From Mycobacterium sp. (GTDB lineage Bacteria > Actinomycetota > Actinomycetes > Mycobacteriales > Mycobacteriaceae): a stretch of 64,000 nt of DNA. Position numbers and translations under genes: made by a program. Numbering within the stretch: the first letter of the stretch is position 1; each line of letters opens with the position of its first letter. A model generated the notes under the pieces. It did no database searches. It had not been told where the DNA came from and saw nothing but the letters and a program-made list of their open reading frames with translations. The stretch lies in NCBI GenBank assembly GCA_016197405.1, contig JACPVR010000004.1:421487-485486 (forward strand). Reading direction: 5' to 3'. This document shows positions 1,020 to 61,705 of this stretch, in pieces.

Positions 1020-2583
<1,564 letters not shown>

Positions 2584-2587
<4 letters not shown>

Positions 2588-5246: not shown

Positions 5247-5448
5247 GATGGACTCACTGGACACGTGTCCAAGGTATCCGACGGTGGCCGCTATAGGCAA
5301 GATCTGCGTCAATGATGGCTGTCAACTGCATGTACGGGGTATTGACGCCCGGTGACCGGCACCCGGGCCTTGTCATGGGCGCGGGTCTGCGGCTATGTTC
5401 GGACGGCAGTCATCGGACACATGTCCAGATAATTCGGGAGAGTCGCAC

Positions 5449-6918: not shown

Positions 6919-6935
6919 GGATCAAGGGAGATCGA

Positions 6936-7697: not shown

Positions 7698-7727
7698 TGC
7701 CGAGTGAGGGACGAGCGATGAGGAGAA

Positions 7728-9058: not shown

Positions 9059-9062
9059 AGTT

Positions 9063-9085
9063 CATACCGTATCGGATACGGTATG
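9063..9085. promoter_or_regulatory. Perfect 23-bp palindrome overlapping a start codon, probable operator
   Basis: CATACCGTATC-G-GATACGGTATG; the last 3 nt are the ATG of the 9083 gene. Confidence 0.75.
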
Positions 9086-10135: not shown

Positions 10136-10178
10136 CCTGCGCCGCTACCGAGGCCGAGCGGCCCGATACAGTGCTTGC

Positions 10179-12329: not shown

Positions 12330-13165
12330 AGGCGACGTCTTGGCACGGCAAACAGGCCGTCGTCACCGGCGCGGGGTCGGGCATAGGCGCCGCTTTGTGC
12401 CGGGCGCTGGTCGGCGCGGGGGCCGAGGTGTTGTGCACCGATATCGACGGCGCCGCCGCCGAACGCACCGCCGTGGCGCTGGGTCCGGCTGCCCGGGCTG
12501 CCCGTGTCGATGTCACCGATGCCGCCCAGGTACAGGCCGCCGTGGACGATGTGGTGACCCGGACAGGGCGCATCGACTTGATGTTCAACAACGCCGGAAT
12601 CACCTGGGCAGCCGATACCGAGCTGCTCACTCTGGCGCACTGGAACGCGATAATCGACGTCAACATCCGCGGCGTGGTTCACGGGGTTGCCGCCGCCTAC
12701 CCGCAGATGGTCCGGCAAGGCCACGGTCACATCGTCAACACCGCATCGATGGCGGGTCTGGCCGCCGCCGGCCAGATCACCAGCTATGTGATGAGCAAGC
12801 ATGCCGTCGTCGGATTGTCACTGGCACTGCGATCCGAAGCTGCCGCGCACCATGTCGGCGTGCTGGCCATCTGTCCGGCCGCGGTCGAGACACCGATCCT
12901 CGACAAGGGGCTGATAACCGGTATCAACGGCCGCGAGTTCTACCGGATGGGCCAGCGCAGCAGCACCTTCTACGATCCCGATCGGCTCGCCGCCGACACC
13001 TTGCGCGCCATCTCGCGCAACAAGGCACTGCTGATCGTCCCGCGACGGGCCTACCTCGGCTGGCTGCTCGCCCGGTTCACCCCGGGTCTGATGAACCGTA
13101 TGGCAATACATTTCGTGGCCCGCCAGCGTGCGGCCCAAAGTGTCTCGGAAGGAAGTCCGCAGTGA
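12326..13165 (+). CDS. SDR family oxidoreductase
   Basis: VTGAGSGIGAALCRAL, NNAGITW, YVMSK; TTG start at 12326 overlaps the upstream stop. Confidence 0.87.
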   Translation: MKATSWHGKQAVVTGAGSGIGAALCRALVGAGAEVLCTDIDGAAAERTAVALGPAARAARVDVTDAAQVQAAVDDVVTRTGRIDLMFNNAGITWAADTELLTLAHWNAIIDVNIRGVVHGVAAAYPQMVRQGHGHIVNTASMAGLAAAGQITSYVMSKHAVVGLSLALRSEAAAHHVGVLAICPAAVETPILDKGLITGINGREFYRMGQRSSTFYDPDRLAADTLRAISRNKALLIVPRRAYLGWLLARFTPGLMNRMAIHFVARQRAAQSVSEGSPQ

Positions 13166-14241
13166 ACGCACCGGCTTTGATCCCGCGCTATCCCGATGAC
13201 GTGACGGCCGGCTGGCTCGGTGGCGTGCTGCCGGAGGGAACCCAGATCGACGATGTGGCGATCACCGCCGTCGGTACCGGGCAGACCGGCGCGACCTACC
13301 GGATCACCGCACGCTACGCGGCCAACCCCGCCGGGTTACCGCACACCTTCGTCGTCAAGCTCCCTGCCAACGACGACACCGTGCGTGACCGCGTCGTGCT
13401 GGGCTATCGCAGCGAGTGCGCGTTCTACACGTCGGTGGCCGACCGGGTGAAAGTGCCTATCCCCGAATGCTTTCATTGCGAGATCTCCGAGGACGCATCG
13501 GACTATGCGCTGCTACTCAGCGATCAGGCGCCGGCGCGACAGGGGGATCAGATTGCCGGGTGCGCAGAAGACGAGGCGCGGTTGGCCGCGACTGCCATCG
13601 CCGGGTTGCACGGACCCACGTGGGGTCAGCGCGAGTGGCTGACCTTTTCTGGACTGGCGATGTCACTGCTCGACGACGCAGCCAAGAAGGGCCTCGGCGA
13701 TGTCGCGGTGATGAGCGCCGATATCACCGTCGAGAAGCTGGGGTCGAAGCTCAGCACACAGGACGGCGCGACATTCACCGAGGCGATGAGTCTGGTGACA
13801 CCCTGGCTGTCGAACGATTTCGGCCGGTTCAGCCTCATCCACGGCGACTACCGGCTCGACAACATGCTGTTTCATCCCGCAGGTGACCGGGTGTGGGTTG
13901 TCGACTGGCAGACCCTGGGTGTCGGCCTGCCGGCGCGCGACCTGTCCTACTTCGCTGCGACCAGCCTGGAGCCAGGACTGCGCGCGACACTCGAGCGTGA
14001 CCTGGTGGCCGAATACCATCGCGCCTTGGGTGGTTACGGAGTCAGCGACTACGACCTCGAATCCTGTTGGCATGACTATCGGTACGGGATGATCCAGGCG
14101 TTGCTGATATCCGGTCTGGGCTTTGCGTTCGCAGTGGGAACCGACCGTGGCGACGATATGGTCGCCACCATGCTGCGCCGCGGCTGTCAGGCGGTCCGTG
14201 AACTCGGCACCCTGGACCTGGTCCGTGCGGAGATGCCATGA
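13162..14241 (+). CDS. APH-like phosphotransferase family protein
   Basis: Brenner-type kinase motif HGDYRLDNMLF and VVDWQ; GTG start at 13162. Confidence 0.87.
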   Translation: MNAPALIPRYPDDVTAGWLGGVLPEGTQIDDVAITAVGTGQTGATYRITARYAANPAGLPHTFVVKLPANDDTVRDRVVLGYRSECAFYTSVADRVKVPIPECFHCEISEDASDYALLLSDQAPARQGDQIAGCAEDEARLAATAIAGLHGPTWGQREWLTFSGLAMSLLDDAAKKGLGDVAVMSADITVEKLGSKLSTQDGATFTEAMSLVTPWLSNDFGRFSLIHGDYRLDNMLFHPAGDRVWVVDWQTLGVGLPARDLSYFAATSLEPGLRATLERDLVAEYHRALGGYGVSDYDLESCWHDYRYGMIQALLISGLGFAFAVGTDRGDDMVATMLRRGCQAVRELGTLDLVRAEMP

Positions 14242-15581
14242 CCGGGCGCTACCCCAACACCGCGATAATCGGCGCCGGTATCAGTGGTCTGACGGCGGGC
14301 AAGATGCTCAAGGACTACGGGGTGCCATACACCACCTTCGAGACCTCCGATCGCATCGGCGGGAACTGGGCGTTCGGCAATCCCAACGGACATAGCAGCG
14401 CCTATCGCTCGTTGCATATCGACACCTCCAAACATCGGTTGGCGTTCAAGGACTTTCCGGTTCCCGAGCATTACCCGTCCTTTCCGCACCACTCCGATAT
14501 CAAGGCCTATCTCGATGACTACGCCGCGACATTCGGGCTGCTGGACAATATCGAGTTCGGCAACGCGGTGGAGCACGCCCGGCCCGAGGGCGATGGCTGG
14601 GCCATCATCGACCAGCGCGGGCAGACAAGGCATTTCGATCTACTCGTCGTCGGCAACGGCCATCACTGGGATGCACGGCTGCCGGAGTTCCCCGGCACAT
14701 TCACCGGGGAGAGCATCCATTCGCATCACTACATCGACCCGCACACCCCGCTGACACTCACCGGTAAACGTATCCTGGTCGTCGGAATCGGGAACAGCGC
14801 CGCCGATATCACAGTCGAGCTCTCATCGAGGACGCTGCAGAACGACGTGACATTGTCCACCCGGTCCAGTGCCTGGATCGTCCCCAAATACCTTGCCGGA
14901 CAGCCGGGTGACAAGTTCTTCCGGACCTCACCGCATATCCCGCTGGCCTGGCAGCGCAAGGCCGCTCAATTGTTCGCGCCGCTGGTCGGCGCCGACCCGA
15001 CCACCTACGGACTGCCACCGGCCAACCACAAGCTATTCGAAGCCCACCCGACGCAGTCGGTGGAACTGCCATTGCGGCTCGGCTCCGGTGACGTCACCCC
15101 GAAGCCCAATGTCGCACGACTCGACGGCGACGCCGTGCATTTCGATGACGGCACCAGCGCGGTCTTCGACGCCATCGTCTACGCCACCGGCTACAACATC
15201 ACTTTCCCGTTCTTCGATCCGGAGTTCATCAGCGCACCCGACAACCACATCAGGCTCTACAAGCGCATATTCAAACCCGGAATCGACAACCTGGCCTTCA
15301 TCGGCTTCGCCCAGGCCATACCCACGCTGTTCCCCTTCGTGGAATGCCAGGCGCGACTTCTTGCCGCCTACGCGGTGGGCCGCTACGCACTGCCTCCGGT
15401 GGACGAGATGGAGCGCGTCATCGACGCCGACCAGCAGCTGCACGCCGGTCACTGCACCGACCGGCCGCGGCACACCCAGCAGGTCGACTACTTCTACTAC
15501 GAGCACGATGTACGCACCAAGGAGATCCCCGCGGGTCTCAAGCGGGCAGCGACGCCACGACATCGAGTGGCAGCGCGGTGA
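14238..15581 (+). CDS. Flavin-containing monooxygenase
   Basis: IIGAGISGLTAGKML, canonical FTGESIHSHHY fingerprint, VVGIGNSAADI. Confidence 0.92.
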   Translation: MTGRYPNTAIIGAGISGLTAGKMLKDYGVPYTTFETSDRIGGNWAFGNPNGHSSAYRSLHIDTSKHRLAFKDFPVPEHYPSFPHHSDIKAYLDDYAATFGLLDNIEFGNAVEHARPEGDGWAIIDQRGQTRHFDLLVVGNGHHWDARLPEFPGTFTGESIHSHHYIDPHTPLTLTGKRILVVGIGNSAADITVELSSRTLQNDVTLSTRSSAWIVPKYLAGQPGDKFFRTSPHIPLAWQRKAAQLFAPLVGADPTTYGLPPANHKLFEAHPTQSVELPLRLGSGDVTPKPNVARLDGDAVHFDDGTSAVFDAIVYATGYNITFPFFDPEFISAPDNHIRLYKRIFKPGIDNLAFIGFAQAIPTLFPFVECQARLLAAYAVGRYALPPVDEMERVIDADQQLHAGHCTDRPRHTQQVDYFYYEHDVRTKEIPAGLKRAATPRHRVAAR

Positions 15582-15601
15582 ACTCCTCAGGAGGAGCGGA
15601 C

Positions 15602-16540
15602 ATGGTCTACCGGGACCTGACGTTCGTCTCGGCCGGCAGCGCCTGCAGCAGCTGGCATTTCCCGGCGCAGGGCGATCATTTCACCACCGGATCCGGGCGG
15701 CCCGCCGTGGTGATGGGACACGGTTTTGCCGGCACCAAGGACTCCGGGCTGCTTCCGTTCGCCGAGAAGTTCCAAGCCGCCGGTCTGGACGTGCTCGCCT
15801 TCGACTATCGAGGATTCGGCACATCCGAAGGGCTTCCACGGCAGCATATCTCGATCGATCGGCAGGTCGAGGACTACCAGGCGGCCGTTGCCGCCGCGCA
15901 GCGCCTGCCCGACGTCGACCCCAGTCGCATCGTCTTGTGGGGTTCGTCGTTGTCCGGAGGTCACGTGCTGCGGGTGGCCGCGGGCCGCGACGACATCGCC
16001 GCGGTCATCGCGATGACGCCGATGACGAATTCGCTTGCCACCGGTCGCCAGGTCGTGTCGCAATACGGTGTGGGCACGGCCCTGCAGCAGACGGCGCACG
16101 GGTTTCGCAGCCGCATCGCCACGGCCCGCGGTCGTGCCCCGGTGATGACGCCGGTGGTGGCACGTCCCGGACAACCCGGGTGCCTGACGTTGGAGGGCGC
16201 CTACGAGAGTTACCTGTCGATGGCGGGCCCGAGCTGGCGCAACGAGGTCGACGCATCCATCGGTATCGAACTGTCCCGCATCAGCACCGCGCGATACGCC
16301 AAGGCGCTACGCGCGAAACTGCTGGTACAGATCGCCGATTTCGACCGCTACGTCCCCGCCGCCGCCGTGGCCAAGACCGCCGTGCACGGACGCGCAATCG
16401 TGCACCATTACCCGTGTGACCACTTCGACGTCTGGCCGGGGCACGAACTGTTCGGGCAGGCCTGCGCTGATCAGGTGAACTTCTTGCGGAGGTCGCTGAC
16501 GTCGGTGGAGGATCCGGTGCGAATCCGATCGGAGTCATAG
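15602..16540 (+). CDS. Alpha/beta hydrolase
   Basis: MGHGFAGTKDSGL, LWGSSLSGGHVL nucleophile elbow (GSSLSG); AGGAGG Shine-Dalgarno before ATG. Confidence 0.88.
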   Translation: MVYRDLTFVSAGSACSSWHFPAQGDHFTTGSGRPAVVMGHGFAGTKDSGLLPFAEKFQAAGLDVLAFDYRGFGTSEGLPRQHISIDRQVEDYQAAVAAAQRLPDVDPSRIVLWGSSLSGGHVLRVAAGRDDIAAVIAMTPMTNSLATGRQVVSQYGVGTALQQTAHGFRSRIATARGRAPVMTPVVARPGQPGCLTLEGAYESYLSMAGPSWRNEVDASIGIELSRISTARYAKALRAKLLVQIADFDRYVPAAAVAKTAVHGRAIVHHYPCDHFDVWPGHELFGQACADQVNFLRRSLTSVEDPVRIRSES

Positions 16541-20218: not shown

Positions 20219-20959
20219 GTGTCATTGTTGGCGGGACGGACGGCAGTCGTCACAGGTGGAGCGCAGGGCCTCGGCTTGGCGACGGCAAAGCGCTTCGTCG
20301 CCGAGGGGGCGCGGGTGGTGCTCGGCGATCTCGACCTGGCGGCGACTCAAGCCGCCGCTGCCGAGATCGGCGGTCCCGACCTCGCCGTCGCGGTGCGCTG
20401 CGATGTCACCTCGGCCACCGATGTCGACGCGTTGGTCGATGCCGCGGTACAGCGGTTCGGCGGTCTGGACATCATGGTCAACAACGCCGGTATCACCCGA
20501 GACGCCACCTTGCGCAAGATGACCGAGGAGCAGTTCGATCAGGTCATCGCCGTACATCTCAAGGGCACCTGGAACGGTCTGCGATCGGCGACGGCGATCA
20601 TGCGGGAGAACAAGCGCGGCGCAGTCGTCAACATGTCGTCGTTGTCGGGCAAGGTCGGCCTGATCGGACAGACCAACTATTCGGCGGCCAAGGCCGGCAT
20701 CGTCGGAATGACCAAAGCCGCGGCCAAGGAACTGGCGCATCTCGGCGTGCGGATCAACGCCATCCAGCCGGGCCTGATCCGCTCGGCGATGACCGAGGCC
20801 ATGCCGGAACGGATCTGGGAACAGAAGCTCGCCGAGGTGCCGATGGGGCGCGCAGGCGAACCCGACGAGATCGCCAATGTGGCGCTCTTCCTGGCCTCCG
20901 ATCTGTCGTCGTATATGACCGGCACGGTTCTGGAAGTCACCGGCGGACGGTTCATGTGA
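20219..20959 (+). CDS. FabG-like SDR (3-oxoacyl reductase type)
   Basis: [47 protein letters not shown] start. Confidence 0.9.
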
Positions 20960-20978
20960 GAGAGAAAGAGACCGACAT

Positions 20979-22214
20979 ATGAGCACCACACGCACCGCTG
21001 TCATCTGTGAACCCGTCCGGACGCCGATCGGGCGTTACGGCGGCATGTTCGCCCCGCTGACCGCGGTCGAACTCGGAGTGACCGCGCTCAAGGGGCTGCT
21101 GGAGCGCACCGGTGTGGCACCGGATGCCATCGAGGACGTCATCCTGGGGCACTGCTACCCCAGTAGCGAGGCACCCGCAATCGGACGGGTGGTGGCCCTG
21201 GATTCCGGACTGCCGGTGACGGTTCCGGGTATGCAGCTCGACCGCCGTTGCGGGTCGGGGCTGCAGGCCGTCATCCAGGCAGCGATGCAGGTGGGTAGCG
21301 GGCAGAACGAACTCGTCGTCGCGGGCGGCGCCGAGAGCATGAGCAATGTGGTGTTCTACTCCACCGATATGCGCTGGGGCGGGAGCCGCGGCGGTGTGCG
21401 TGTGCACGACGCGCTGGCCCGGGGCCGCAGTACCGCGGGCGGTCGGGACTACCCGGTGCCCGGCGGCATGCTGGAGACCGCGGAGAACCTGCGGCGCCAG
21501 TACGGGATCAGCCGGGTCGAGCAGGACGAGCTCGCGGTGACCTCCCATCAGCGCGCCATCGCCGCGCAGCAGGCCGGCGTGCTCGCCGAGGAGATCATCC
21601 CGGTGACCGTCCGCACCCGTAAAGGGCAGGACGTCATCGACACCGACGAGCATCCGCGCGCCGATACGACGGTCGAGTCCCTTGCCAGGCTCAAACCCGT
21701 TCTCGGCAAGGATGATCCGGACGCGACTGTCACGGCCGGCAACGCCAGCGGGCAGAACGATGCGGCGTCGATGTGCATCGTCACCACCGAGAGCAAGGCC
21801 GCCGAACTGGGCCTGCGCCCCCTGGTAAAGCTGGTGTCCTGGGGTGTCGCCGGCGTGCCCCCGAACATCATGGGTATCGGTCCGGTTCCGGCCACCGCGC
21901 TGGCACTGGAGAAGGCCGGCCTGACCCTGGCCGATATCGACCTCATCGAACTCAACGAAGCATTCGCTGCGCAGGCGCTTGCAGTGATGCGGGAGTGGAA
22001 GTTCACCCCGTCTGATCTGGAGCGCACCAATGTGCACGGATCGGGTATCTCCCTGGGACATCCGGTGAGCGCCACCGGCGGCCGGATGTTGGCGACGCTG
22101 GCTCGTGAACTCACCCGGCGCCAGGCGCGCTACGGTCTGGAGACCATGTGCATCGGCGGCGGCCAGGGATTGGCCGCGGTCTTCGAGCGTGTTTCCGGAG
22201 GGGTAGACGCATGA
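20979..22214 (+). CDS. Acetyl-CoA acyltransferase (thiolase)
   Basis: RTPIGRYGG, DRRCGSGLQAV, NVHGSGISLGHPVSATGGR, CIGGGQGLA. Confidence 0.95.
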   Translation: MSTTRTAVICEPVRTPIGRYGGMFAPLTAVELGVTALKGLLERTGVAPDAIEDVILGHCYPSSEAPAIGRVVALDSGLPVTVPGMQLDRRCGSGLQAVIQAAMQVGSGQNELVVAGGAESMSNVVFYSTDMRWGGSRGGVRVHDALARGRSTAGGRDYPVPGGMLETAENLRRQYGISRVEQDELAVTSHQRAIAAQQAGVLAEEIIPVTVRTRKGQDVIDTDEHPRADTTVESLARLKPVLGKDDPDATVTAGNASGQNDAASMCIVTTESKAAELGLRPLVKLVSWGVAGVPPNIMGIGPVPATALALEKAGLTLADIDLIELNEAFAAQALAVMREWKFTPSDLERTNVHGSGISLGHPVSATGGRMLATLARELTRRQARYGLETMCIGGGQGLAAVFERVSGGVDA

Positions 22215-24135: not shown

Positions 24136-25320
24136 ATGGGCGTCCTCGACGGTATGCGTGTGCTCGACTACGGCCGGTTCATCGCCGCTCCCTGGTGCAC
24201 CGCGATATTGGCCGATATGGGAGCCGACGTTCTGCGGGTGGAAAAGCGCGAGGGTGGCGAGGACCGCTGGGTGCAGGCCGTCACCGCGAACGGCGAGGGC
24301 GGCACTTTCCTGCAGTGCAACCGCAACAAGCGCTCGCTGACGTTGGATTCCACCACGCCCGAGGGAGCCGAGATCACCCGCCGGTTGGTGGCATCCGCCG
24401 ATATCGTGGTCGCCAATATGCCTGCCGCGGGAATGCGCGCCAGCGGACTCGACTACGAATCGCTTCGGGCCGTCAAACCGGACATCATCCTCGCAAGCGC
24501 CACCGCATACGGCGAAGGCGGACCCTACAGCGACAGAATCGGATTCGACGGTGCGGGACAGGTGATGTCGGGGGCCACCTACCGACAGGGCCTGCCCGAA
24601 AAACCCATCCGGACCGTGGTGCCCTACGCCGACTTCGGCACCGCACTGACCCTGACCATCGGTGTCATGATGGCGGTGTTACACCGGGAACGCACCGGGG
24701 TGGGGCAGCACGTGGAGAGTGCGCTGCTGCCGACCGCGCTGATGCTGTCGAACGCCTTTCTGATCGAACGTGACCTGCTCGGAGTCGACAAGCCGCGCAT
24801 GGGTAATCGGGGTACCTCGGTGGCACCCTGCGACCTGTATCGCACCAAGGACGATGGCTGGGTGTTGCTGCAGATCGCCGGGCAGCCGATGTTCAAGCGT
24901 TGGTGCCGCATGGTGCACCAACTCGATCTTTTCGACGATCCGCGCTTCGCCGACGACGACCTGCGCTGGCAGAACGGCGATGTGCTCAACGACCTGATGG
25001 CGCACTGGTGCGCCGACAAGACCAAGGCTGAGGTGCTTGCGCTACTGGAAGCCGCGAAACTGCCTGCCGCCCCGATGCATTCCACACAGGATGTGCTCGA
25101 CGATCCGCACATTCAGGCGATGGGGTATCTCCAGCGCGTCGCGTTCCCCGGTGCGGCGCACGACGTTCCGATCATCGAGACACCGTTCCGGATGTCGGCG
25201 ACACCAGGGACAATCCGTCGACGTGCCCCGTTACTCGGCGAACACACCGACGAGGTCCTCGGCGATATCGGCTACAGTGCAGCCGATATCGCCGGCTTGC
25301 GGGAACGCGAAATCATCTAG
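24136..25320 (+). CDS. CaiB/BaiF CoA-transferase family III protein
   Basis: VLDYGRFIAAPWCTAILADMGADVLRVEKREGGEDRW...NRNKRSLTLD. Confidence 0.94.
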   Translation: MGVLDGMRVLDYGRFIAAPWCTAILADMGADVLRVEKREGGEDRWVQAVTANGEGGTFLQCNRNKRSLTLDSTTPEGAEITRRLVASADIVVANMPAAGMRASGLDYESLRAVKPDIILASATAYGEGGPYSDRIGFDGAGQVMSGATYRQGLPEKPIRTVVPYADFGTALTLTIGVMMAVLHRERTGVGQHVESALLPTALMLSNAFLIERDLLGVDKPRMGNRGTSVAPCDLYRTKDDGWVLLQIAGQPMFKRWCRMVHQLDLFDDPRFADDDLRWQNGDVLNDLMAHWCADKTKAEVLALLEAAKLPAAPMHSTQDVLDDPHIQAMGYLQRVAFPGAAHDVPIIETPFRMSATPGTIRRRAPLLGEHTDEVLGDIGYSAADIAGLREREII

Positions 25321-26318
25321 GCCACCGAGTCCCGCGGTGTGGCACGAATCCTGATGACCTCCATGGTCGACCAGGATCTCGCCGGTCTCGGGCGACCCAC
25401 CTCCCGAACCGCACCGTGCATCCATGCGATGCCCAGCGAGACTGCCGCGGCGGCGGCATTGTGGGTGGCCTCGAACTCGAAGGTGCGTCCGCCGAAAGCC
25501 AACGTCGCCCGGACCGGCTGGCTGACGCCGTCGCGGGTCTCCCAGGTCACCGTCGATTTCACGTCGTCGTTGGTTGCGATGACGGGACCCTGCCCTTGGC
25601 TGTTGAATGTCGCGGTGGCGTAGTTGCCCGCCCCGAGCATCGCATTTCCCGTCTCCCAGTGACCATCGGCGTCGACGACACCCCAGACGAACCAATAGTG
25701 TTCGAGTTCGGCAATTTTCGACACCTGCGCGCTCAATCCCGGTAGACAGTACATCCGATCGAGCCCGCCATAACCGCCGGTGATCGCCGAGCCGTCGATA
25801 CTGCCTGACACCGTGCACCCGGTACTGGTGTAACCCACGTCATCCGGGAGCCCGGGAACGTAGATCGTGGTGACGTTCATCGGCAGCGGTGTGAGGACGA
25901 CATCGATGACGTTATCGTCCTTCCAGACGTACTTGTCGCGTCCAAGAACCACTTTGATGGGATGTCGGGCGTGCACCGTGGTATTGCCGGCGAACAGTGC
26001 TGAGCTGTGCTCTCGGTCCGACCAGAACAGCGGCCCCCAGTACATATCGTGCTCACCGGGAAACCGTAGGGTCCTCGGGTGCGACCACAGATCCGTCGAG
26101 CATTCGTGCAGGATGAAATCGAACGCCGCGCTCGCTGACATCGTCCTGATCAACTCGTACCGTTTGCCATCGGCAGTATCCACCATGGCCCACAGGAAAT
26201 TCAGATCGTTGTGCAACCCGGGGAACTGTTTGTCTCTTGTCGAATGATCCTGAATGGATGCATCCGCCATCGAGACGTACGGCACGATGTTGACTTTTGC
26301 GATGTCGAAATCAGTCAT
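25317..26318 (-). CDS. Uncharacterised protein, possibly AttH/lipocalin-like beta-rich fold
   Basis: 333 aa, MTDFDIAKVNIVPYVSMADASIQDHSTRDKQFPGLHNDLNFLWAMVDTADG; no recognised catalytic motif; AttH-like assignment is tentative. Confidence 0.55.
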   Translation of the reverse strand: MTDFDIAKVNIVPYVSMADASIQDHSTRDKQFPGLHNDLNFLWAMVDTADGKRYELIRTMSASAAFDFILHECSTDLWSHPRTLRFPGEHDMYWGPLFWSDREHSSALFAGNTTVHARHPIKVVLGRDKYVWKDDNVIDVVLTPLPMNVTTIYVPGLPDDVGYTSTGCTVSGSIDGSAITGGYGGLDRMYCLPGLSAQVSKIAELEHYWFVWGVVDADGHWETGNAMLGAGNYATATFNSQGQGPVIATNDDVKSTVTWETRDGVSQPVRATLAFGGRTFEFEATHNAAAAAVSLGIAWMHGAVREVGRPRPARSWSTMEVIRIRATPRDSVA

Positions 26319-51996: not shown

Positions 51997-52620
51997 TTAC
52001 CGCCAGGCCTCGATGAGTTCGTCGGTGGTGGTGACGGTGGCCAGCAATGCCAGGGTGTTTTCGATGATCGCGGTGCCGTAATCGGCCGGGATTCCGGCCA
52101 CCGCGTCGCGGGGGAGTACCACTCGATAACCGGCGTTGACGGCGTCCATCACCAGGTTGGGAATGGCGATGTTGAGCGACACTCCCACCGCCACGATCGT
52201 CGTCACGCCCATGTTGCGCAGTATCGCGTTCAGATCGGTACCGCCCATCGGGCCCAGGCCGTGCCAGCGGTGCAGCACCAGGTCCTGCGGCTCTGGTCCG
52301 AACTCCGGCAGGAGGGTGGCGCCATCGCTACCGGGCAGAATCGCGACGTCCTTTCGGCCGATCGCGAACAGCGTGGCATTGCGATTGGAGCCCAGACCAT
52401 CGGCGCGGCGCTGGACAAGGCAGTGCACCAACGGAACCGACGCCGATCGCGCCACCGGTAGCAGTCGGGCGATATTCGGCAACGCTTCCCGGCGGGCCTC
52501 ATCTGCCAACGCCGCCAGGCCGGCGTTCGGGCCGACGACAGCACCCTGGAGCTCCTGGGTGATCACGGCGGTGTGACCCGGTGCCACCAGGCCCACCAGC
52601 TTGTCGCGAGGCACCGTCAC
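51997..52620 (-). CDS. Isochorismatase/cysteine-hydrolase-fold protein
   Basis: TAVITQELQGAVVGP...GGTDLNAILRNMGVTTIVAVGVSLNIAIPNLVMDAVNAGYRVVLPRDAVAG. Confidence 0.85.
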   Translation of the reverse strand: MTVPRDKLVGLVAPGHTAVITQELQGAVVGPNAGLAALADEARREALPNIARLLPVARSASVPLVHCLVQRRADGLGSNRNATLFAIGRKDVAILPGSDGATLLPEFGPEPQDLVLHRWHGLGPMGGTDLNAILRNMGVTTIVAVGVSLNIAIPNLVMDAVNAGYRVVLPRDAVAGIPADYGTAIIENTLALLATVTTTDELIEAWR

Positions 52621-53627
52621 GCCGAGGTGCTCTCGTGCGCGGGAACCTCATAGAATCGGGTGGCCCACTTCCGCATGGCCATATACGGTTTCGCGTCGAT
52701 CTTGGACAGCGCCGGGTGCTCGACGTACTTCTGGTAGCGCCAGATCTCGACATCCTCCCAGACCGTCTTGAGGAATTGGCGTTCGACTTTTTCCCGGACA
52801 TGCTCGGGCGGAACATCGGAGGTCTCGCCGGCGATCTTGGGCCACCAGATCGAATAGAACATGTCGGAGACCTCGTCGTCGACCGGGGTGCAGGCGAATA
52901 TCAGCCGATGGTTTGACGTGCCTTCGAAGACACTCATCGCGAACCCGAGCCCGGAGAAGTGGCTGTGGATGCGCAGCGCCATCGCATCCGGATCCTCGCT
53001 GCGGGCATCGGGCCAGCCCGTGAGGAACCGCCACTCCTCGTCGACGTGCTCCCAGTGCAGACATACCGGCGTCACGCTTGCGCCGTGTACGTAGCGGAAG
53101 TGAGCGCTGTCGGGTCCGTTCTCGGCGACGATCTGCGGGTGCACCGGTATGGCATCCGCGCGGCTGGAGAACTCCGGGTAGGGCCGGTAGTAGGCATCGG
53201 CGTCGGTCTCGAACTGCGGGAACTTCCAGAAGATGTCGGGTAGCTCCCATTGCGGTTCCTTGCCCTCGGGCTGGAACCACATGAAGATGCAGCCGTACTG
53301 CTCCTTGACGGGGTAGGAGCGCAGACGCAGACCGCGGTTCGGTTTGTCGGGTTGGTACGGGATGAACCGGTTCGAGCCGTCCGGACCCCAGCGCCAGCCG
53401 TGGAAAGGACATTCGACGCAGTCTCCGACGACCGTGCCGCCGTGTCCGATATGGGCGCCGAGATGTTTGCAGTGCGCTTCCAATAGGTGCAACACGCCGG
53501 CGGTATCGCGGTAGGCCACCAGATCCTCACCGAAATACTTCAGCGCCCGGACGTCGCCGACCTGGTATTCCGCCGACCAACCGATCATGAACCACCCGGT
53601 GACCTTCCAGGTGAACGGCACCTTCAT
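52617..53627 (-). CDS. Rieske [2Fe-2S] oxygenase, KshA-like
   Basis: EAHCKHLGAHIGHGGTVVGDCVECPFHGWRWGPDG Rieske CxH..CxxH; ATG at 53627. Confidence 0.9.
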   Translation of the reverse strand: MKVPFTWKVTGWFMIGWSAEYQVGDVRALKYFGEDLVAYRDTAGVLHLLEAHCKHLGAHIGHGGTVVGDCVECPFHGWRWGPDGSNRFIPYQPDKPNRGLRLRSYPVKEQYGCIFMWFQPEGKEPQWELPDIFWKFPQFETDADAYYRPYPEFSSRADAIPVHPQIVAENGPDSAHFRYVHGASVTPVCLHWEHVDEEWRFLTGWPDARSEDPDAMALRIHSHFSGLGFAMSVFEGTSNHRLIFACTPVDDEVSDMFYSIWWPKIAGETSDVPPEHVREKVERQFLKTVWEDVEIWRYQKYVEHPALSKIDAKPYMAMRKWATRFYEVPAHESTSA

Positions 53628-53657
53628 CGCGTGCTCCCTTTTTTCGTTGCCAGGCTC

Positions 53658-53674
53658 ACTGTATCCCTTACGGT
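53658..53674. promoter_or_regulatory. 17-bp palindrome, probable operator in divergent promoter
   Basis: ACTGTAT-ccc-TTACGGT between Rieske oxygenase and BVMO-like gene. Confidence 0.7.
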
Positions 53675-53761
53675 ATAAGTTTCTGCAGGAACCGCACGTG
53701 CGGTGTCCGCCGGTGACCGGCGAACGTGCAGCGCAACGGCCCCGAGGAAAGGTGTGCACTC

Positions 53762-55387
53762 ATGACCGTCGAAAACGCCGACCGCTACGACGTTTTGATC
53801 ATCGGCGCCGGTTTCTCCGGGCTCTATGCACTGCACCGGTTGCGGGAAGCCGGACTGGTGGTTCGGGTGCTGGAGAAAGACGACGCCGTGGGCGGAACCT
53901 GGCACGTCAACCGCTATCCCGGTGCGCGCTGTGATATAGAGAGCATCGAATACTCCTACAGCTTCTCCGACGAGATCCAGCAGGAGTGGGAATGGACGGA
54001 GACGATGCCCGCCCAGCCCGAGATCGAGGCATACCTGAACTTCGTGGCGGACCGGCTCGACCTGCGCCGCGATATCGCCTTCGGCGCCGAGGTCGTTGCC
54101 GCGACGTTCGACGAGGACGCGGCCGAATGGAGGTTGCGTACCGCTGCCGGCTCCGAACTGGTCGCCGCCTTCGTCGTCGCGGCGTCCGGAATCCTGTCGG
54201 TACCGCTGGAACCCGATATCGCCGGTATCGATTCGTTCACCGGGACATCACTTTTCACCAGTCGCTGGCCCGCCGAGGGATTCGATCTGACCGATAAACG
54301 TGTCGGTGTCATCGGTACCGGCTCGACCGGTGTGCAGCTCATTCCCGTCGTTGCCCGCCAAGCCGGGCAGCTGTGCGTGTTCCAGCGTTCGGCGGCCTAC
54401 ACACTGCCGTGGCACGTTCGCAAATTCGAGCCCGGTGAGCTGGACGGACTGAAGGCGAACTATGCCGAGATCCGCGCCGAGCAGCGGGCACACCAGGTCG
54501 GGGCCGCGCGCCTGAGCGCCTTCTCGGTGCTGTTCGACATGCTCGCAAAGCTGCCACTGAAGACGGCGCCGCGGGCCGATCAGCTGCGTGCCGTCGAGGA
54601 TGGCGGAGTGCTGGGCGCGCTGAGCTGGGGTGACATCTTCTTCGATATCGAGGCGAATCGGATGGCGGCGAAACTGTACGGCGAGGCGGTGGCCCGCATC
54701 GTCAAGGATCCTGATACCGCCGCATCGTTGGTGCCCACCCACCCGTTCGCCTGTAAGCGGCCCATCATCGACCAGGGCTACTACGAGACGTTCAACCGCG
54801 ACAACGTCACCTTGGTCGATCTGCGGAAGAACCCGATCCGCGAGGTTGCCCCGACGGGTATCCGCACCGAGGACGGGATGTACGAACTCGACGTCATCAT
54901 CTTTGCGACCGGGTTCGACGCCATGACAGGTGCGTTGAGTCGCATCGACATTCGGGGACGGGGCGGTGCGCTGCTGCGTGACGTGTGGGCCGACGAGGGT
55001 CCGGTGTCCTATCTGGGACTGCAGGTCGCCGGTTTCCCGAACCTCTTCACCATCCAGGGGCCCGGTGCACCGGCAGCCGCCACGAATTTCGTCGCGGCAC
55101 TGGAACAGCACGTGGAATGGATCGCCGACTGCGTCGTGGATCTGCGGGCACGTGGTGTCCGCACCATCGAAGCGACGCCGGCAGCGCAGGCCGACTGGAT
55201 CGAACACACCACCTCGCTTGTCGAGCCGACGGTCATGCTGCACCCGTCCTGCAATTCCTGGTACAACGGCGGCAATGTGCCGGGCAAGAAGCGGATGTAC
55301 ATGGGCTATGTCGGCGGCATACCGGAGTACCGCCGCCGCTGCGACGAGATCGCCATGGGCGGCTACACCGGTTTCGAATTGCGCTGA
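53762..55387 (+). CDS. Baeyer-Villiger/flavin monooxygenase family protein
   Basis: VLIIGAGFSGLYALHRLREAGLVVRVLEKDDAVGGTWHVNRYPGARCDIESIEYSYSF; FTGTSLFTSRWP. Confidence 0.93.
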   Translation: MTVENADRYDVLIIGAGFSGLYALHRLREAGLVVRVLEKDDAVGGTWHVNRYPGARCDIESIEYSYSFSDEIQQEWEWTETMPAQPEIEAYLNFVADRLDLRRDIAFGAEVVAATFDEDAAEWRLRTAAGSELVAAFVVAASGILSVPLEPDIAGIDSFTGTSLFTSRWPAEGFDLTDKRVGVIGTGSTGVQLIPVVARQAGQLCVFQRSAAYTLPWHVRKFEPGELDGLKANYAEIRAEQRAHQVGAARLSAFSVLFDMLAKLPLKTAPRADQLRAVEDGGVLGALSWGDIFFDIEANRMAAKLYGEAVARIVKDPDTAASLVPTHPFACKRPIIDQGYYETFNRDNVTLVDLRKNPIREVAPTGIRTEDGMYELDVIIFATGFDAMTGALSRIDIRGRGGALLRDVWADEGPVSYLGLQVAGFPNLFTIQGPGAPAAATNFVAALEQHVEWIADCVVDLRARGVRTIEATPAAQADWIEHTTSLVEPTVMLHPSCNSWYNGGNVPGKKRMYMGYVGGIPEYRRRCDEIAMGGYTGFELR

Positions 55388-55406: not shown

Positions 55407-56018
55407 TCATGCGCCGTAGTCCCGGACTATGCGATCCCGCACGTATTGCAGCTCGCGGGCCAGATCGTAGTGTTCGGACATCACGATCCAGTGGAAAGCG
55501 ATACCGAACGCCGAAGCGCTGATGTCGTTGACGGCCCGATCGACGTCGATATCGGGTCGGACCGATCCGTCGGCGATACCGTTGCGCAGCCCCACCTCGA
55601 CGGCTTCGACACCGCGCTGGAACCAGGCCTGTAACCGGGATCGCACCGGTGAAGTGGTCTTGACCGCTTCGAATGTCATGACGAACATCGCCCGCAGGAA
55701 GTCGCGATCCTGGGCGTGCAACTCCAGGACCCGGCCGAAGTGGGCCACGGCGTTCTCCATGCCGGTGGCATCCGGTTGAGGGCCGGGCAATACCTGTTGG
55801 ACGTATCCGTGCTCGAAGAACGCGTCGAGGATGGCGTCCTTACTGCCGTAACGGGCATGCACCATTGCCCGGCTGTAGCCGGCTCGCCGTCCGATCTCTG
55901 CCGCCGTGGTCGCTTCCCAGCCTTTTTCGGTGATGAGTTCGGCGGCAGCCTCGACAAGACGCCGACTCGACGCCTCGACACGCTGCGGTTGGGTCAGTCC
56001 ACGGGCGGGTGACGGCAC
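55407..56018 (-). CDS. TetR family transcriptional regulator
   Basis: LVEAAAELITEKGWEATTAAEIGRRAGYSRAMVHARYGSKDAILDAFF. Confidence 0.94.
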   Translation of the reverse strand: MPSPARGLTQPQRVEASSRRLVEAAAELITEKGWEATTAAEIGRRAGYSRAMVHARYGSKDAILDAFFEHGYVQQVLPGPQPDATGMENAVAHFGRVLELHAQDRDFLRAMFVMTFEAVKTTSPVRSRLQAWFQRGVEAVEVGLRNGIADGSVRPDIDVDRAVNDISASAFGIAFHWIVMSEHYDLARELQYVRDRIVRDYGA

Positions 56019-56085
56019 CCTTGCATATTAGACGTCCGACAACTAAGTTGCTTGTTCAGCGTCAAATAACGCGATGAGGGGTGTG

Positions 56086-57162
56086 ATGAAGAGTCCGGCA
56101 GCGGAGGCCCCTGCCGGAATCGGCGCGATCGATCCCGAGTGGCTCACCGACGCACTGCGCGAACATCATTCGCTTCCGGACGATCTCGTCGTTGCCGATC
56201 TTCGCACCGAACAGATCGCCCAGGACAGCGGGTTCTCGTCACTGCTGTACCGGTTGCATCTCACCGGTACCGGAGTGCCGCCGACCGTCATCGTGAAACT
56301 GCCCGCACAGTCCGAGGCGCGCGGCGCGATGGAGATGCTGGGCGGCTACACCCGCGAACTGAACTTCTACCGCAAGGTAGCCGATCGCGTACCGTTGGCG
56401 ACACCTCGGGTGTATTCGGCTCGCATGGCGCAGGATTCGATCGACTTCGTGCTGGTGATGGAAGACCTGCAGAACTGGCACAACGCCGATCATCTTGCCG
56501 GACTGTCGCTGCGGCAGGCCCAGGTGTGCATCGAGCAACTCGCCGGTCTGCACGCATGGTCGACGCTGCACGAGACCGAAGTGCCCGAGGACTTTCCGAG
56601 TATCGACACCGCGATCGCCCGTGAGGTCTTCCTTCCCGTGTTCGCGCTGGGCTGGCAGGTATACCGCGACCATTCCGCGGCCTCGGTCCCGCCCACGGTG
56701 CAACGATATGCCGAGAGATTCACCGAACTGGCGCCACAGGCCCTCGACGCGTTGAGTCGACGTTCGATGCTGCTACATGGCGACATCCGGGCCGACAACA
56801 TGTTCTTCGACGGAGACCAGCTCAAGGTCGTCGACTTCCAATTCGTCTGCCGTGGAGCCGGGCTCGCGGATATCGGCTATCTGATCAGTCAAGGTCTACC
56901 GACCGGGGTCCGTCGCGGAAAAGACGAGTCGCTGGTGCGGCAATATCTGAGACAGCTTGCCGACTTCGGGGTGACCGATTACGGCTTCGACGAAGCATGG
57001 CGGCAGTACCGATTCGCCGTCGGCTACCTGATGGTTCTGCCCGTCATAACGCTGGTGGGCTGGGACGCGTTACCAGCGCGCTCGCGTGCGCTGTGCATCG
57101 CGCTCGTCGATCGGGCGGTCGCCACCATCGAAGACATCGGTGCGGTGGAGGTTTTCCAATGA
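56086..57162 (+). CDS. APH-like phosphotransferase family protein
   Basis: LLHGDIRADNMFFDGDQLKVVDFQ; start 56074 or 56086. Confidence 0.88.
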   Translation: MKSPAAEAPAGIGAIDPEWLTDALREHHSLPDDLVVADLRTEQIAQDSGFSSLLYRLHLTGTGVPPTVIVKLPAQSEARGAMEMLGGYTRELNFYRKVADRVPLATPRVYSARMAQDSIDFVLVMEDLQNWHNADHLAGLSLRQAQVCIEQLAGLHAWSTLHETEVPEDFPSIDTAIAREVFLPVFALGWQVYRDHSAASVPPTVQRYAERFTELAPQALDALSRRSMLLHGDIRADNMFFDGDQLKVVDFQFVCRGAGLADIGYLISQGLPTGVRRGKDESLVRQYLRQLADFGVTDYGFDEAWRQYRFAVGYLMVLPVITLVGWDALPARSRALCIALVDRAVATIEDIGAVEVFQ

Positions 57163-57533
57163 GCAGGACCGCGCGTGAGGTGGTCGAGCTGTACAACCTC
57201 GTCGTCTGGAACGAACGGGACTTCGCTCTGGCCGAGGAGCTGATGGGTGAGACCGTCATACGGCACGAGGTGGGGGAAGCTACGGTGCTCACTCACGCGC
57301 AGGCGGTGGCACGTATCGTCGATCACTGGGCGATGTTCGAGACCATCCGCTTCGAGCTCAATCTGGTGGTGGCCGGAGACGACGGCGAACATGTCGCGAT
57401 CGTCTATCAGTCACCCATGGAGCTCAAGGACGGCACCACGACAACGGTCGGCAGCATGGAGATCTTCCGCGTGGTCGACGGGAGAATCACCGAAGTCTGG
57501 AATTGCGGCTACAAACAAGGAGTTTGGGCGTGA
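57159..57533 (+). CDS. SnoaL/NTF2-like protein
   Basis: MSRTAREVVELYNLVVWNERDFALAEELMGETVIRHEVG...VDGRITEVWNCGYKQGVWA. Confidence 0.85.
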   Translation: MSRTAREVVELYNLVVWNERDFALAEELMGETVIRHEVGEATVLTHAQAVARIVDHWAMFETIRFELNLVVAGDDGEHVAIVYQSPMELKDGTTTTVGSMEIFRVVDGRITEVWNCGYKQGVWA

Positions 57534-58579
57534 CACGAGTACTCGACGAACTGGGCTACTACCTGCTCGCCGGTGCAGGCGGTGAAGGACCGGCCGGTCT
57601 TATGGACGAGGCGCGGCGTGGTGAGGACCTCGGCTTCGGCACCGCCTTCATCTCCGAGCGGTGGAACGTCAAGGAGGCGTCGTCGCTCACCGGGGCGGCC
57701 TGCGCAGTGACCGCGAGGATGCAGATCGCCACGGCCGCAACGAATCACAACACCAGGCATCCGTTGATAACCGGGTCCTGGGCGACCACCATGCATCGGC
57801 TGTCGCGGGGACGGTTCACCCTGGGCATCGGCCGCGGTATCGCCGCGATGTACAACGCCTTCGGGGTGCCGGCGGTGACGACGGCCCAGATGGAAGACTT
57901 CGCGCAGGTGATGCGGCGGCTCTGGCAGGGCGAACTGATCTTCAACCACGACGGGCCGATCGGCAAGTACCCGGTGCTGTTCCTGGATCCCGATTTCCGG
58001 GAGGACATCCGGCTGGCGATCGTCGCGTTCGGGCCGCAGACGCTGGCGCTGGGTGGACGAGCCTTCGACGACGTCATCCTGCACACCTACTTCACCCCGG
58101 AAACGCTGCAGCGCGCGGTGAAAACCGTCAAGGACGCCGCCGAGCAGGCGGGCCGCGATCCGGACAGCGTAAAGGTGTGGTCGTGCTTCGCAACCGTCGG
58201 CGACCACCTGCCCGAGGAGCTGCGGCTCAAGAAGACCGTCGCCCGGCTGGCCACCTATCTGCAGGGCTACGGCGACCTGATGGTCAGCACGAACGGCTGG
58301 GATCCCGCTGTTTTAAAGCGGTTTCGGGAAGATCCGGTGGTGACGGCCATTCCCGGCGGCATCGATCACAAGGCCAGCGCCGAACAGATCGAACACATCG
58401 CCACCTTGATCCCCGAGGAGTGGCTGGAACCTTCGGCGACCGGGTCGGCGGCCCAGTGTGTCGACCGCATCCGGCAGGAGTTCTCCTACGGCGCCGACAA
58501 GGTCATCATGCACGGGGCAACCCCGGACGAACTCGAACCGATCGTCACCCGGTACCGGGACACCGATCCGGGGAGCTGA
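57530..58579 (+). CDS. LLM-class (F420-dependent type) oxidoreductase
   Basis: LMDEARRGEDLGFGTAFISERWNVKEASSLTGAACAVT, RLSRGRFTLGIGRGI; GTG start at 57530. Confidence 0.9.
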   Translation: MTRVLDELGYYLLAGAGGEGPAGLMDEARRGEDLGFGTAFISERWNVKEASSLTGAACAVTARMQIATAATNHNTRHPLITGSWATTMHRLSRGRFTLGIGRGIAAMYNAFGVPAVTTAQMEDFAQVMRRLWQGELIFNHDGPIGKYPVLFLDPDFREDIRLAIVAFGPQTLALGGRAFDDVILHTYFTPETLQRAVKTVKDAAEQAGRDPDSVKVWSCFATVGDHLPEELRLKKTVARLATYLQGYGDLMVSTNGWDPAVLKRFREDPVVTAIPGGIDHKASAEQIEHIATLIPEEWLEPSATGSAAQCVDRIRQEFSYGADKVIMHGATPDELEPIVTRYRDTDPGS

Positions 58580-58601: not shown

Positions 58602-59018
58602 TCAACGGCTCTCCGGCGGATCGGGCCGTTGCCAGACCAGGGTGCTGTGGGTGGTCGATCCGTCTTCGGCGGTCATGGTCGCCGAGAGCACCAACCGGTC
58701 TTCGACGAAGGAGACGTGGCGGATCTGGGTCTGGGTCAGTAGGTCCGGCATCGTGGCCATCTGCACGTCATGGCGAACGGTGGACTCCAGCTCGTCGACC
58801 TGGAACGGACCGCCATAGGCGATGTAGTCACCGATTTCGGTGTGCGTCGAGGCGACTTCCGGGGCCAGCTGCGCAGACATGAATCCATCGGCGGTGTAGA
58901 GGATCAGGCCACGCGGCTGCCGGCCCAAGGGGTGCCGGGCAGCTCCGGTTCGGCTATCGCGGGCCTCGAAAGACACCAGTTCCCAGCCGCCGAGGATATC
59001 GGTGCGTTTGAGTGCCAT
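58602..59018 (-). CDS. Lipocalin-like domain protein
   Basis: DILGGWELVSFEARDSRTGAARHPLGRQPRGLILYTADGFMSAQLA. Confidence 0.8.
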   Translation of the reverse strand: MALKRTDILGGWELVSFEARDSRTGAARHPLGRQPRGLILYTADGFMSAQLAPEVASTHTEIGDYIAYGGPFQVDELESTVRHDVQMATMPDLLTQTQIRHVSFVEDRLVLSATMTAEDGSTTHSTLVWQRPDPPESR

Positions 59019-59033
59019 CGAGACTCCAGATGC

Positions 59034-60539
59034 TCAGGGGACTATCGCGGTGCGGCTGACGGGTGCTGCCGCGGACTGCCTGCTCAGCAAGCCGCGCTGC
59101 AGGGCCGCTATGAGGGCGTCCCGTGTCTCGCGGGGATCGATGAGTTCGTCGAAACCCAGGTTCTCCGCCGAGTTGAACGATGCCTGCAGTTCGGCGTCGC
59201 GCATCGCGCTGCTGGCGTCTTCGTCGGCGTTCGATGCGCGGCTGAGCGCCGCGGCGCTCATGGCGCCCATCGTCGCACCGGGGTATCCGAAGGTGGCGAC
59301 CTGGTCGTCGAATCCCAACAGCGACATCACCATCGAGCCGAATCCGTAGGCCTTTCGCAAGGTCAGATGCAGCTTGATTGTTGTCGCCATCGTCTGAGCG
59401 GTGAACATCCGTGCACCGCTGCGCAGGATCCCGCTGCGTTCTGACCGGCTGCCCGGCAGCATCCCCGGATTATCGGCCAGGAAGATGATCGGCAGGTGGA
59501 AGGAATCGGCGACCATGATGAAATGTGCCGCTCTGTCGGCGGCGTCGTTGTCGATGGAACCGGCCATCACATTGGGCTGGTTGGCCACCACGGCGACGGG
59601 ATGACCGCCGAGATGAGCCAGGGCGCAGACGATCGCGCGGCCGAACCGTGGTGCAACCTCGAACCAGCCGGCGTCGTCGAAGACCACGTCGAGCACGGCG
59701 CGCATGTCATACACCCGCCGGTTGTCCCGTGGGACGATATCGAGCAGCTCGGGTGTGGCGCGCTCCCGCATCGACGCCGAGGCGGTGCGGGCAGACGGAT
59801 ACGACCACGCACTGGACGGAAAGTACGACAGATACCGGCGGATCTCGTCGATGACGGCACCGTCGTCGTCGGCCACATTGTGGATCACCCCGCTGCGGAT
59901 AGCGACATCGGGACCGCCGAGATCCTCCTTCGAGATGTCCTCTCCGGTCGACTCTTTGACCACCGGTGGGCCTGCGGTGAATATCGCGCCCTGGCGACTC
60001 ATGATCCGGAAATCGCAGACCGGCGCGACCAGTGCCCCGTGACCCGCCGACGGCCCGAGGACCGCCGCCACCGTCGGTACCAGTCCTGAGCATCTGGCCT
60101 GAGCGATCAGGTCGGTCGGCGACCGGCCGCCGTGCTTGCCGGGCCGAAACCCCGCTCCTTCCAGGAGCATCACCAACGGGATCCGGTTGCGCAGCGCCAG
60201 TTCGGCCAGCCGGTAGCGCTTGGCGTTGCTACCCGATCCGATGGTTCCGGCGATGGTGGTGAAATCCTCGGCACCGACCATCACCGGGTGGCCGTCGACG
60301 TGACCCGAGCCCGCCACGATTCCGTCGGCCGCGACCTCACCGCCGACCAGGGTGCCCAGTTCGTGGAAGCTGCCGGCATCCAGAAGTCTGTCGATGCGGG
60401 CGCGGGCGTCGAGCTTGTCCTTGGCCCGGTGCGCGGCCAGTCGTTCGGTGCCGCCCATGGCGCGTGAGCGCTGACGTCGTCGGTCCAGGTCGGCCAGCGT
60501 GTCCTGCCAGTCCTGCGCCCCTGCCATACGACTCCTCAT
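59034..60539 (-). CDS. Acyl-CoA carboxyltransferase (AccD-like)
   Basis: KDKLDARARIDRLLDAGSFHELG, LLEGAGFRPGKHGGR, FLADNPGMLPG, KAYGFGSMVMSLLGFDDQVATFGYPGATMGAM. Confidence 0.92.
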   Translation of the reverse strand: MRSRMAGAQDWQDTLADLDRRRQRSRAMGGTERLAAHRAKDKLDARARIDRLLDAGSFHELGTLVGGEVAADGIVAGSGHVDGHPVMVGAEDFTTIAGTIGSGSNAKRYRLAELALRNRIPLVMLLEGAGFRPGKHGGRSPTDLIAQARCSGLVPTVAAVLGPSAGHGALVAPVCDFRIMSRQGAIFTAGPPVVKESTGEDISKEDLGGPDVAIRSGVIHNVADDDGAVIDEIRRYLSYFPSSAWSYPSARTASASMRERATPELLDIVPRDNRRVYDMRAVLDVVFDDAGWFEVAPRFGRAIVCALAHLGGHPVAVVANQPNVMAGSIDNDAADRAAHFIMVADSFHLPIIFLADNPGMLPGSRSERSGILRSGARMFTAQTMATTIKLHLTLRKAYGFGSMVMSLLGFDDQVATFGYPGATMGAMSAAALSRASNADEDASSAMRDAELQASFNSAENLGFDELIDPRETRDALIAALQRGLLSRQSAAAPVSRTAIVP

Positions 60540-60667: not shown

Positions 60668-61705
60668 ATGAGTGGATCGCCGGCCACCGGGTTGAAGATC
60701 GACCGCGGTGTTCCCAGCCAGCTCGAGCGTGTGCCCGCGGTGGCGCGTGAACTCGAAGAATCGGGCTATGACGGTTGCTGGACCGGCGAGATCAACCACG
60801 ATCCGTTCCTGCCGATGTTGCTTGCGGCAGAACACACCTCCCGTATCGAGCTGGGCACCAGCATCGCGGTGGCGTTCGCGCGCAACCCGATGACGGTGGC
60901 GCAGCTGGGCTGGGATCTGCAGGCCTATTCGCAGGGGCGGTTCATCCTGGGTCTCGGCACCCAGGTGCAGGCACATGTCGAGAAGCGGTTCGGCATGCCG
61001 TGGAGCCACCCGGTGCCGCGGATGCGGGAGTTCGTCGCCGCCCTGCGTGAGATCTGGTCCTGCTGGCGTACCGGCGAGAGACTTCGCTTCGAAGGCCGGT
61101 TCTACAACCACACGTTGATGACACCGATGTTCACACCTGAGCCCGTCGACGTGCCCGCACCCAGGATCTTCCTCGCCGCGGTGGGTGAGTCGATGACCGA
61201 GATGTGCGGAGAGGTCGCCGACGGCCTGTTGGCGCATGCTTTCAGCACCCGGCGCTATCTGGAGGAAGTCACCGTGCCCGCTCTGCAGCGGGGGCTGTCT
61301 CGCAGTGGCCGCGGCCGTGCGCAGATCCAGGTATCCAGTCCGGTCTTCGTGGTCACCGGGCGCGACGAAGACGAACTCGCCGCGGCCGCCGGGGCCTTCC
61401 GCAAGCAGATCGCGTTCTACGCGTCGACCCCGGCCTACCGTCCGGTACTGGACCTGCACGGCTGGGGTGACCTGCAACCCGAACTACGCAGGCTGTCGCT
61501 CGACGGCGACTGGGATGCCATGACCGATCTGATCGACGACGAGGTGCTGTGTGCCTTCGCCGTCGTCGCACCCGTGGACGATGTAGCCGACGCTCTCCGG
61601 CAGCGCTGCGCCGGCGTGATCGACCGGGTGCTACCAGGTTTCGGGGCGGGCACACCCGAGCCGGTGATCACCGCGGTACTCGACGATGTTCGCAGGGGGC
61701 ACTGA
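60668..61705 (+). CDS. LLM-class F420-dependent oxidoreductase
   Basis: ELEESGYDGCWTGEINHDPFLPMLLAAEHTSRIELGTSIAVAFARNPMTVAQLGWDLQAYSQGRFILGLGTQV. Confidence 0.94.
   Translation: MSGSPATGLKIDRGVPSQLERVPAVARELEESGYDGCWTGEINHDPFLPMLLAAEHTSRIELGTSIAVAFARNPMTVAQLGWDLQAYSQGRFILGLGTQVQAHVEKRFGMPWSHPVPRMREFVAALREIWSCWRTGERLRFEGRFYNHTLMTPMFTPEPVDVPAPRIFLAAVGESMTEMCGEVADGLLAHAFSTRRYLEEVTVPALQRGLSRSGRGRAQIQVSSPVFVVTGRDEDELAAAAGAFRKQIAFYASTPAYRPVLDLHGWGDLQPELRRLSLDGDWDAMTDLIDDEVLCAFAVVAPVDDVADALRQRCAGVIDRVLPGFGAGTPEPVITAVLDDVRRGH

Follow-up and report, generated by a model that had tools for sequence, protein, structure and literature searches.

An EcKL/APH-type kinase and a TIGR03857 LLM oxidoreductase form a recurrent gene pair and, in mycobacteria, part of an overlapping three-gene operon

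The genes for an EcKL/APH-type small-molecule kinase and for an LLM oxidoreductase of TIGR03857 are strongly linked in the family of the window, which is the whole 64,000-nucleotide stretch of DNA analysed, taken from a Mycobacterium genome of 6.1 Mb in 36 contigs. In the window these two genes and a gene for a SnoaL-like, NTF2-fold protein between them form one operon, and its control by a divergent TetR-family regulator is the simple reading of the arrangement. The gene set is conserved and is best regarded as a further variant of alcohol catabolism coupled to a kinase; literature searches on MSMEG_2249, TIGR03857 and the gene combination returned no description of the set or of the kinase-LLM pair.

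Linkage of the kinase and LLM genes across genomes

The kinase and the LLM were searched separately in a sample of 151 genomes of the family, and the distances between them were taken from the coordinates. An EcKL/APH-like kinase was located within 10 kb of the LLM for 52 of the 71 TIGR03857 matches, and 48 of these 52 pairs were on the same strand and within about 0.5 kb of each other. Both gene orders were found among the same-strand close pairs, the kinase being upstream of the LLM in 14 and downstream in 34, and several pairs in other genomes share a 4-bp overlap. At the level of whole genomes, 56 carried both genes, one the kinase only, seven the LLM only and 87 neither (Fisher p 2.5e-32, uncorrected for genome relatedness). 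Chance clustering of the two genes is ruled out by this recurrence and co-occurrence. The original prediction had left its claim to depend on a conserved neighbourhood of the three genes, and the neighbourhood is strongly conserved; its view that a kinase, an NTF2-like protein and an F420 oxidoreductase make an unusual set was not borne out, the set being recurrent.

TIGR03857 is rare in the phylum (14 of 297 genomes), and only one of nine outgroup LLM loci carries an adjacent kinase. The SnoaL gene is nearly confined to the genus of the window within the 151-genome sample, and outside the genus divergent copies adjoin the LLM at two loci (L032 and L036). The kinase-LLM pair is the widespread core, and SnoaL is mainly an addition of the mycobacteria. 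In several other genera the pair was found without BVMO (Baeyer-Villiger-type monooxygenase) or catabolic neighbours, so a Baeyer-Villiger setting is not a general feature of it. No single pathway predominated when the genes around the pair were counted in other genera, and because the surroundings are varied and often non-catabolic, the basic reaction of the pair may be broader than the pathway of the island.

The three-gene operon and its control region

The genes for the kinase (56086..57162, plus strand, 358 aa), the SnoaL-like protein (57159..57533, plus strand, 124 aa) and the LLM (57530..58579, plus strand, 349 aa, GTG start) overlap by 4 bp at both junctions, ATGA at 57159-57162 and GTGA at 57530-57533, translation of the window placing both exactly where the original prediction had put them. 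An alternative in-frame ATG for the kinase exists at 56074, but the start was taken as 56086 because a GAGGGG ribosome-binding-like stretch precedes it. Of 29 mycobacterial homologues, 19 have a kinase-SnoaL overlap of exactly 4 bp, and NTGA overlaps are the most frequent form of the SnoaL-LLM junction. Since the 4-bp overlaps are kept in relatives, they go beyond chance.

Of 80 mycobacterial LLM loci, 64 contain SnoaL; the trio kinase stood beside SnoaL and LLM in 29, the LLM being without it in the adjacent position in the other 51. Three gene orders were observed: BVMO, hydrolase-like, TetR (minus strand), kinase, SnoaL and LLM (17 loci); BVMO, hydrolase-like, kinase, SnoaL and LLM (9 loci); and BVMO, hydrolase-like, SnoaL and LLM with the kinase absent (14 loci). 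The gene heading the operon in these relatives corresponds in the window to an FMO/Baeyer-Villiger-type monooxygenase gene (53726..55387, plus strand; FMO-like PF00743, with a PtlE-like match). The hydrolase-like protein of the relatives, with a GVSMGSP motif and only weak Pfam matches, has no gene in the operon of the window.

The TetR-family regulator (55407..56018, minus strand; TetR_N PF00440, 48.7 bits) is divergent from the kinase; it was found in 21 of the 80 mycobacterial loci, 20 of which also carry the trio kinase. Sequence comparison located a promoter-like element, TTGCAT-17 bp-TAAGTT (56021..56049, plus strand), in the gap between the two genes, where it may serve as the promoter of the operon. 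Relatives carry it as TTGCAT-17-TAA(C/G)TT, and TTGCAT precedes about 20 of the 29 homologous kinase genes. An operator-like palindrome, GACAACTAAGTTGCTTGT (56038..56055), is a degraded copy of GACAACTAACTTAGTTGT, a sequence conserved ahead of the kinase gene. A search of four genomes gave a single site for GACAACTAACTTAGTTGT in each: three relatives match it perfectly, and the site in the window's own genome, at 56038, has three mismatches. The original prediction had passed over the TetR gene with its palindrome, as well as the recurrence of the kinase-LLM pairing far outside this locus. Judged from this arrangement, the TetR protein is probably a dedicated local repressor of the trio operon. 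A wider TetR regulon was considered as a clue to the substrate and was set aside, as the palindrome occurs only at this operon in the four genomes and gave no further targets.

The encoded proteins and the kinase lineages

The trio kinase matches EcKL (PF02958) with 76.5 bits against a curated cut-off of 22, and APH with 60.8 bits. The motifs HGDIRADN and VVDFQ, read correctly in the original prediction, occupy residues 231-238 and 248-252, and K71, E91, H231, G232, D233, N238, D250 and Q252 are invariant in an alignment of 30 sequences, so that the kinase motifs (HGD....N, D.Q, Lys and Glu) are intact. For the structural model (pLDDT 91.9), the nearest folds by Foldseek were methylthioribose kinase, 3dxp, choline kinase, Rv3168 and the 25-hydroxysteroid kinase (25-HSK) 9fsg; with TM-scores of about 0.5, these matches of a predicted structure are taken as fold-level relatives. 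The profile search against PDB returned methylthioribose and homoserine kinases only, and the phmmer search with the protein as query gave no match to the ACAD11 or 25-HSK chains in PDB at E<=0.01, which rules out membership of the 25-HSK or ACAD11 kinases by sequence. The likeness to 9fsg is one of fold only, at 14-15% identity.

The SnoaL-like protein scores 37.5 bits against SnoaL_2 (PF12680; curated cut-off 27). Its model (pLDDT 92.4) is nearest in fold to limonene-epoxide hydrolase and ketosteroid isomerase (TM about 0.7-0.8); it shares the NTF2 fold with these enzymes and with SnoaL, but the sequence identity is about 15-27%. The literature consulted contained no demonstration of an NTF2-fold enzyme acting as a phosphate lyase. 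The LLM covers the whole TIGR03857 profile with 488 bits against the NCBIfam cut-off of 218.4 and matches Bac_luciferase of Pfam with 133 bits; its closest named relatives, at 92-94%, are from Mycolicibacterium senegalense, porcinum and houstonense. The EcKL, SnoaL_2 and TIGR03857 scores, each above its curated cut-off, agree with the families first named for the three genes (APH-type kinase, SnoaL-like and LLM). Methylene-H4MPT reductase (Mer) is the nearest match of the LLM profile and F420-dependent alcohol dehydrogenase (Adf) comes further down; both the name and these relatives suggest dependence on F420. TIGR03857 is a hypothetical equivalog with no function attached, and almost none of the bacterial EcKL-like kinases has an assigned function either. 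Because the pairing arises again and again, in either gene order and with kinases of different lineages, the two genes define a module whose substrate is directly testable and supply candidates for the partner enzymes of an ATP-dependent removal of alcohols.

The LLM could act directly on the phosphorylated product of the kinase by chemistry like that of FGD, itself an LLM with a phosphorylated substrate. The position of a kinase beside the LLM fits this explanation directly; the LLM superfamily and F420 (predicted for the LLM of the window) are common to both proteins, a phosphorylated substrate being proposed for ours, and two invariant residues close to the site, R44 and K48, might bind an anion, as judged from the alignment. 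We take His40 and Glu109 of FGD to be catalytic and Thr195, Lys198, Lys259 and Arg283 to be its phosphate ligands. None of these six is kept in TIGR03857 in an alignment of 17 homologues whose C-terminal portion is unsure; those columns hold Arg, Ile/Phe/Val and non-basic residues, and an invariant SER(F/W/Y)NxK-type segment occupies the site of His40. FGD-like chemistry was rejected on the absence of the expected residues, subject to the uncertain C-terminal alignment, and we consider this explanation unlikely.

A first kinase gene is located in the same island (13162..14241, plus strand), overlapping by 4 bp both the SDR gene before it and the BVMO gene after it. The latter, a second FMO/BVMO-type gene (14238..15581, plus strand; FMO-like PF00743, 237 bits), is followed by an alpha/beta-hydrolase gene (15344-16540; Hydrolase_4/Abhydrolase_1). 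In a quick tree of 76 kinases, in which several branches are long and the deep branching details are unsure, the trio kinase groups with its counterparts from three trios of the genus and from a second cluster in the genome of the window; in most other genera, the kinase adjacent to the LLM is placed outside this group. The first kinase and its mycobacterial relatives are nested within the LLM-adjacent set of other genera, making it the mycobacterial member of the main LLM-partner lineage and the trio kinase a member of a second, and the starred branches force at least four label changes. The kinase neighbours of the LLM have been recruited from two lineages or more.

A close relative (56-67%) of the first kinase was present in all 30 named LLM genomes tested. 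It shares the strand of the LLM and lies 39-58 kb upstream in ten of the 30 and 128 kb upstream in one, with the same contig assumed from matching coordinates in draft genomes; in others it is far from the LLM. Another contig (C7) of the window's own genome carries a paralogous cluster, L054 (G000:C7:6958-14000), in which TetR, trio-type kinase, SDR, SnoaL, LLM, first-type kinase, SDR, hydrolase and BVMO genes occur within about 15 kb; a 246-aa protein without a Pfam match is listed between the LLM and the first-type kinase. L054 is a compact relative of the island that reunites both kinase types, SnoaL and LLM. The original prediction had taken the second kinase of the island as favouring a phosphorylation-based step, and this view gains support from L054 and from the kinship of the first kinase to the LLM-adjacent kinases.

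The kinase and the LLM might nevertheless be independent enzymes of one pathway, linked only by co-regulation, which act on different intermediates or in which the kinase detoxifies or stores an alcohol; a detoxification or storage role for alcohols has been proposed for the EcKL enzymes of insects. The optional presence of the kinase beside the LLM in mycobacteria (29 of 80 loci) and the varied surroundings of the pair agree with such independence. The tight adjacency, the flips of gene order and the repeated recruitment of different kinase lineages suggest a closer coupling, as does the retention of the first-type kinase in 30 of 30 LLM genomes, and we regard independent enzymes as a possible but doubtful explanation.

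A possible phosphate-activated step and its place in the island

We give a probability of roughly one in three to the reading that the trio operon serves to degrade a hydrophobic compound, resembling a terpenoid, steroid or cycloalkanone, through a step activated by phosphate. A BVMO and an alpha/beta-hydrolase would release a hydroxy intermediate (hydroxy acid or alcohol), probably later a CoA ester, and the EcKL/APH kinase, predicted to act on an alcohol or acyl intermediate by its homology and context, would use ATP to phosphorylate the hydroxyl. Two proteins, the NTF2-fold protein and the F420-dependent LLM, would next take off the phosphate and reset the carbon skeleton, with hydride transfer as the contribution of the LLM, and the CoA ligases, acyl-CoA dehydrogenases, enoyl-CoA hydratases (ECH) and thiolases in which the island is rich would perform the remaining steps. 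The substrate, the order of steps, the use of F420 and the roles of SnoaL and LLM are all predicted from homology and genomic context. The recurrent kinase-LLM linkage, the intact kinase motifs, the BVMO-headed gene order of relatives, the location of the first kinase together with a BVMO and a hydrolase, the presence of both kinase types, SnoaL, LLM, BVMO and hydrolase in L054, and a weak match of the first kinase to the ACAD11 kinase domain argue for the phosphate-activated step. Against it stand the lack of an adjacent kinase at most outgroup LLM genes, the 51 of 80 mycobacterial loci where the LLM has no trio kinase beside it, the pairs of several other genera that have no catabolic neighbours, the lack of a sequence match of the trio kinase to ACAD11 or 25-HSK, and the absence of the hydrolase-like gene from the operon of the window. 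We know of no LLM that eliminates phosphate. The bolder proposal that an F420-dependent LLM and an NTF2-fold protein eliminate phosphate by hydride transfer after an EcKL-type kinase, constituting an ATP-dependent dehydration of inert alcohols in actinobacteria, is speculative and seems rather improbable.

The step is modelled on ACAD10/11 and LvaA/LvaC (levulinate operon), which handle alcohols that block beta-oxidation; the kinase phosphorylates the hydroxyl and the flavin enzyme is then thought to eliminate the phosphate with a hydride 'rebound' (PMC12440821). An APH-superfamily kinase coupled to a flavin enzyme is the point of likeness, and the analogy, with a deazaflavin LLM in the flavin role, is proposed because the conserved kinase partner is a deazaflavin-type LLM. 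The partner in the known systems is an acyl-CoA dehydrogenase, in the window an LLM with predicted F420 dependence; the trio kinase, in contrast to the ACAD11 kinase, is EcKL-like and without a PDB sequence match to it. The 25-HSK of Sterolibacterium denitrificans performs ATP-dependent alcohol dehydration via a phosphoester followed by a C-O lyase (PMC8449060), the lyase of this anaerobic sterol breakdown being still unknown in the literature consulted (PMC8449060, PMC11061730). The kinase fold is common to 25-HSK and the trio kinase, but no candidate lyase is encoded close to 25-HSK, and the trio kinase adjoins SnoaL and LLM.

Classical LvaA/LvaC chemistry could also operate in the island itself, an acyl-CoA dehydrogenase eliminating phosphate from a phosphorylated hydroxyacyl-CoA while SnoaL and LLM act elsewhere. 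Several acyl-CoA dehydrogenases are encoded there, and the first kinase weakly resembles the ACAD11 kinase domain (8v3v; E 3e-5, catalytic loop only). None of these dehydrogenases is conserved beside the kinases, the conserved partner being the LLM, and the genes next to the trio kinase are SnoaL and LLM, with no LvaC-type acyl-CoA dehydrogenase beside it and the dehydrogenases lying elsewhere in the island. This alternative is held to be very unlikely.

Several other features of the window were recorded. The genes at 1232-11447 (P450, SDR, P450, aldehyde dehydrogenase, SDR, 3-hydroxyisobutyrate-dehydrogenase-like and CMD, then purD) follow an order that recalls what we take to be that of the M. 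tuberculosis CYP51 region, and the catabolic island comes directly after purD. ORFs of 260 and 333 aa at 20222-21004 and 25317-26318 gave no Pfam match at 0.01. A KshA-like Rieske oxygenase gene and an isochorismatase-like gene (51997-53759) overlap by 4 bp and are found upstream in more than 50 of the 80 loci. Downstream of the LLM, a Lipocalin_5 gene (58602-59018), for which no more than 3 of the 80 related loci have a relative, precedes a carboxyltransferase gene of the acyl-CoA carboxylase beta type (59034-60539), which is conserved beside the LLM in 71 of the 80 loci and has no biotin carboxylase gene seen adjoining it. A second LLM gene of the island (60668-61705; TIGR03617, MSMEG_2256 family) is kept in 65 of the 80 loci.
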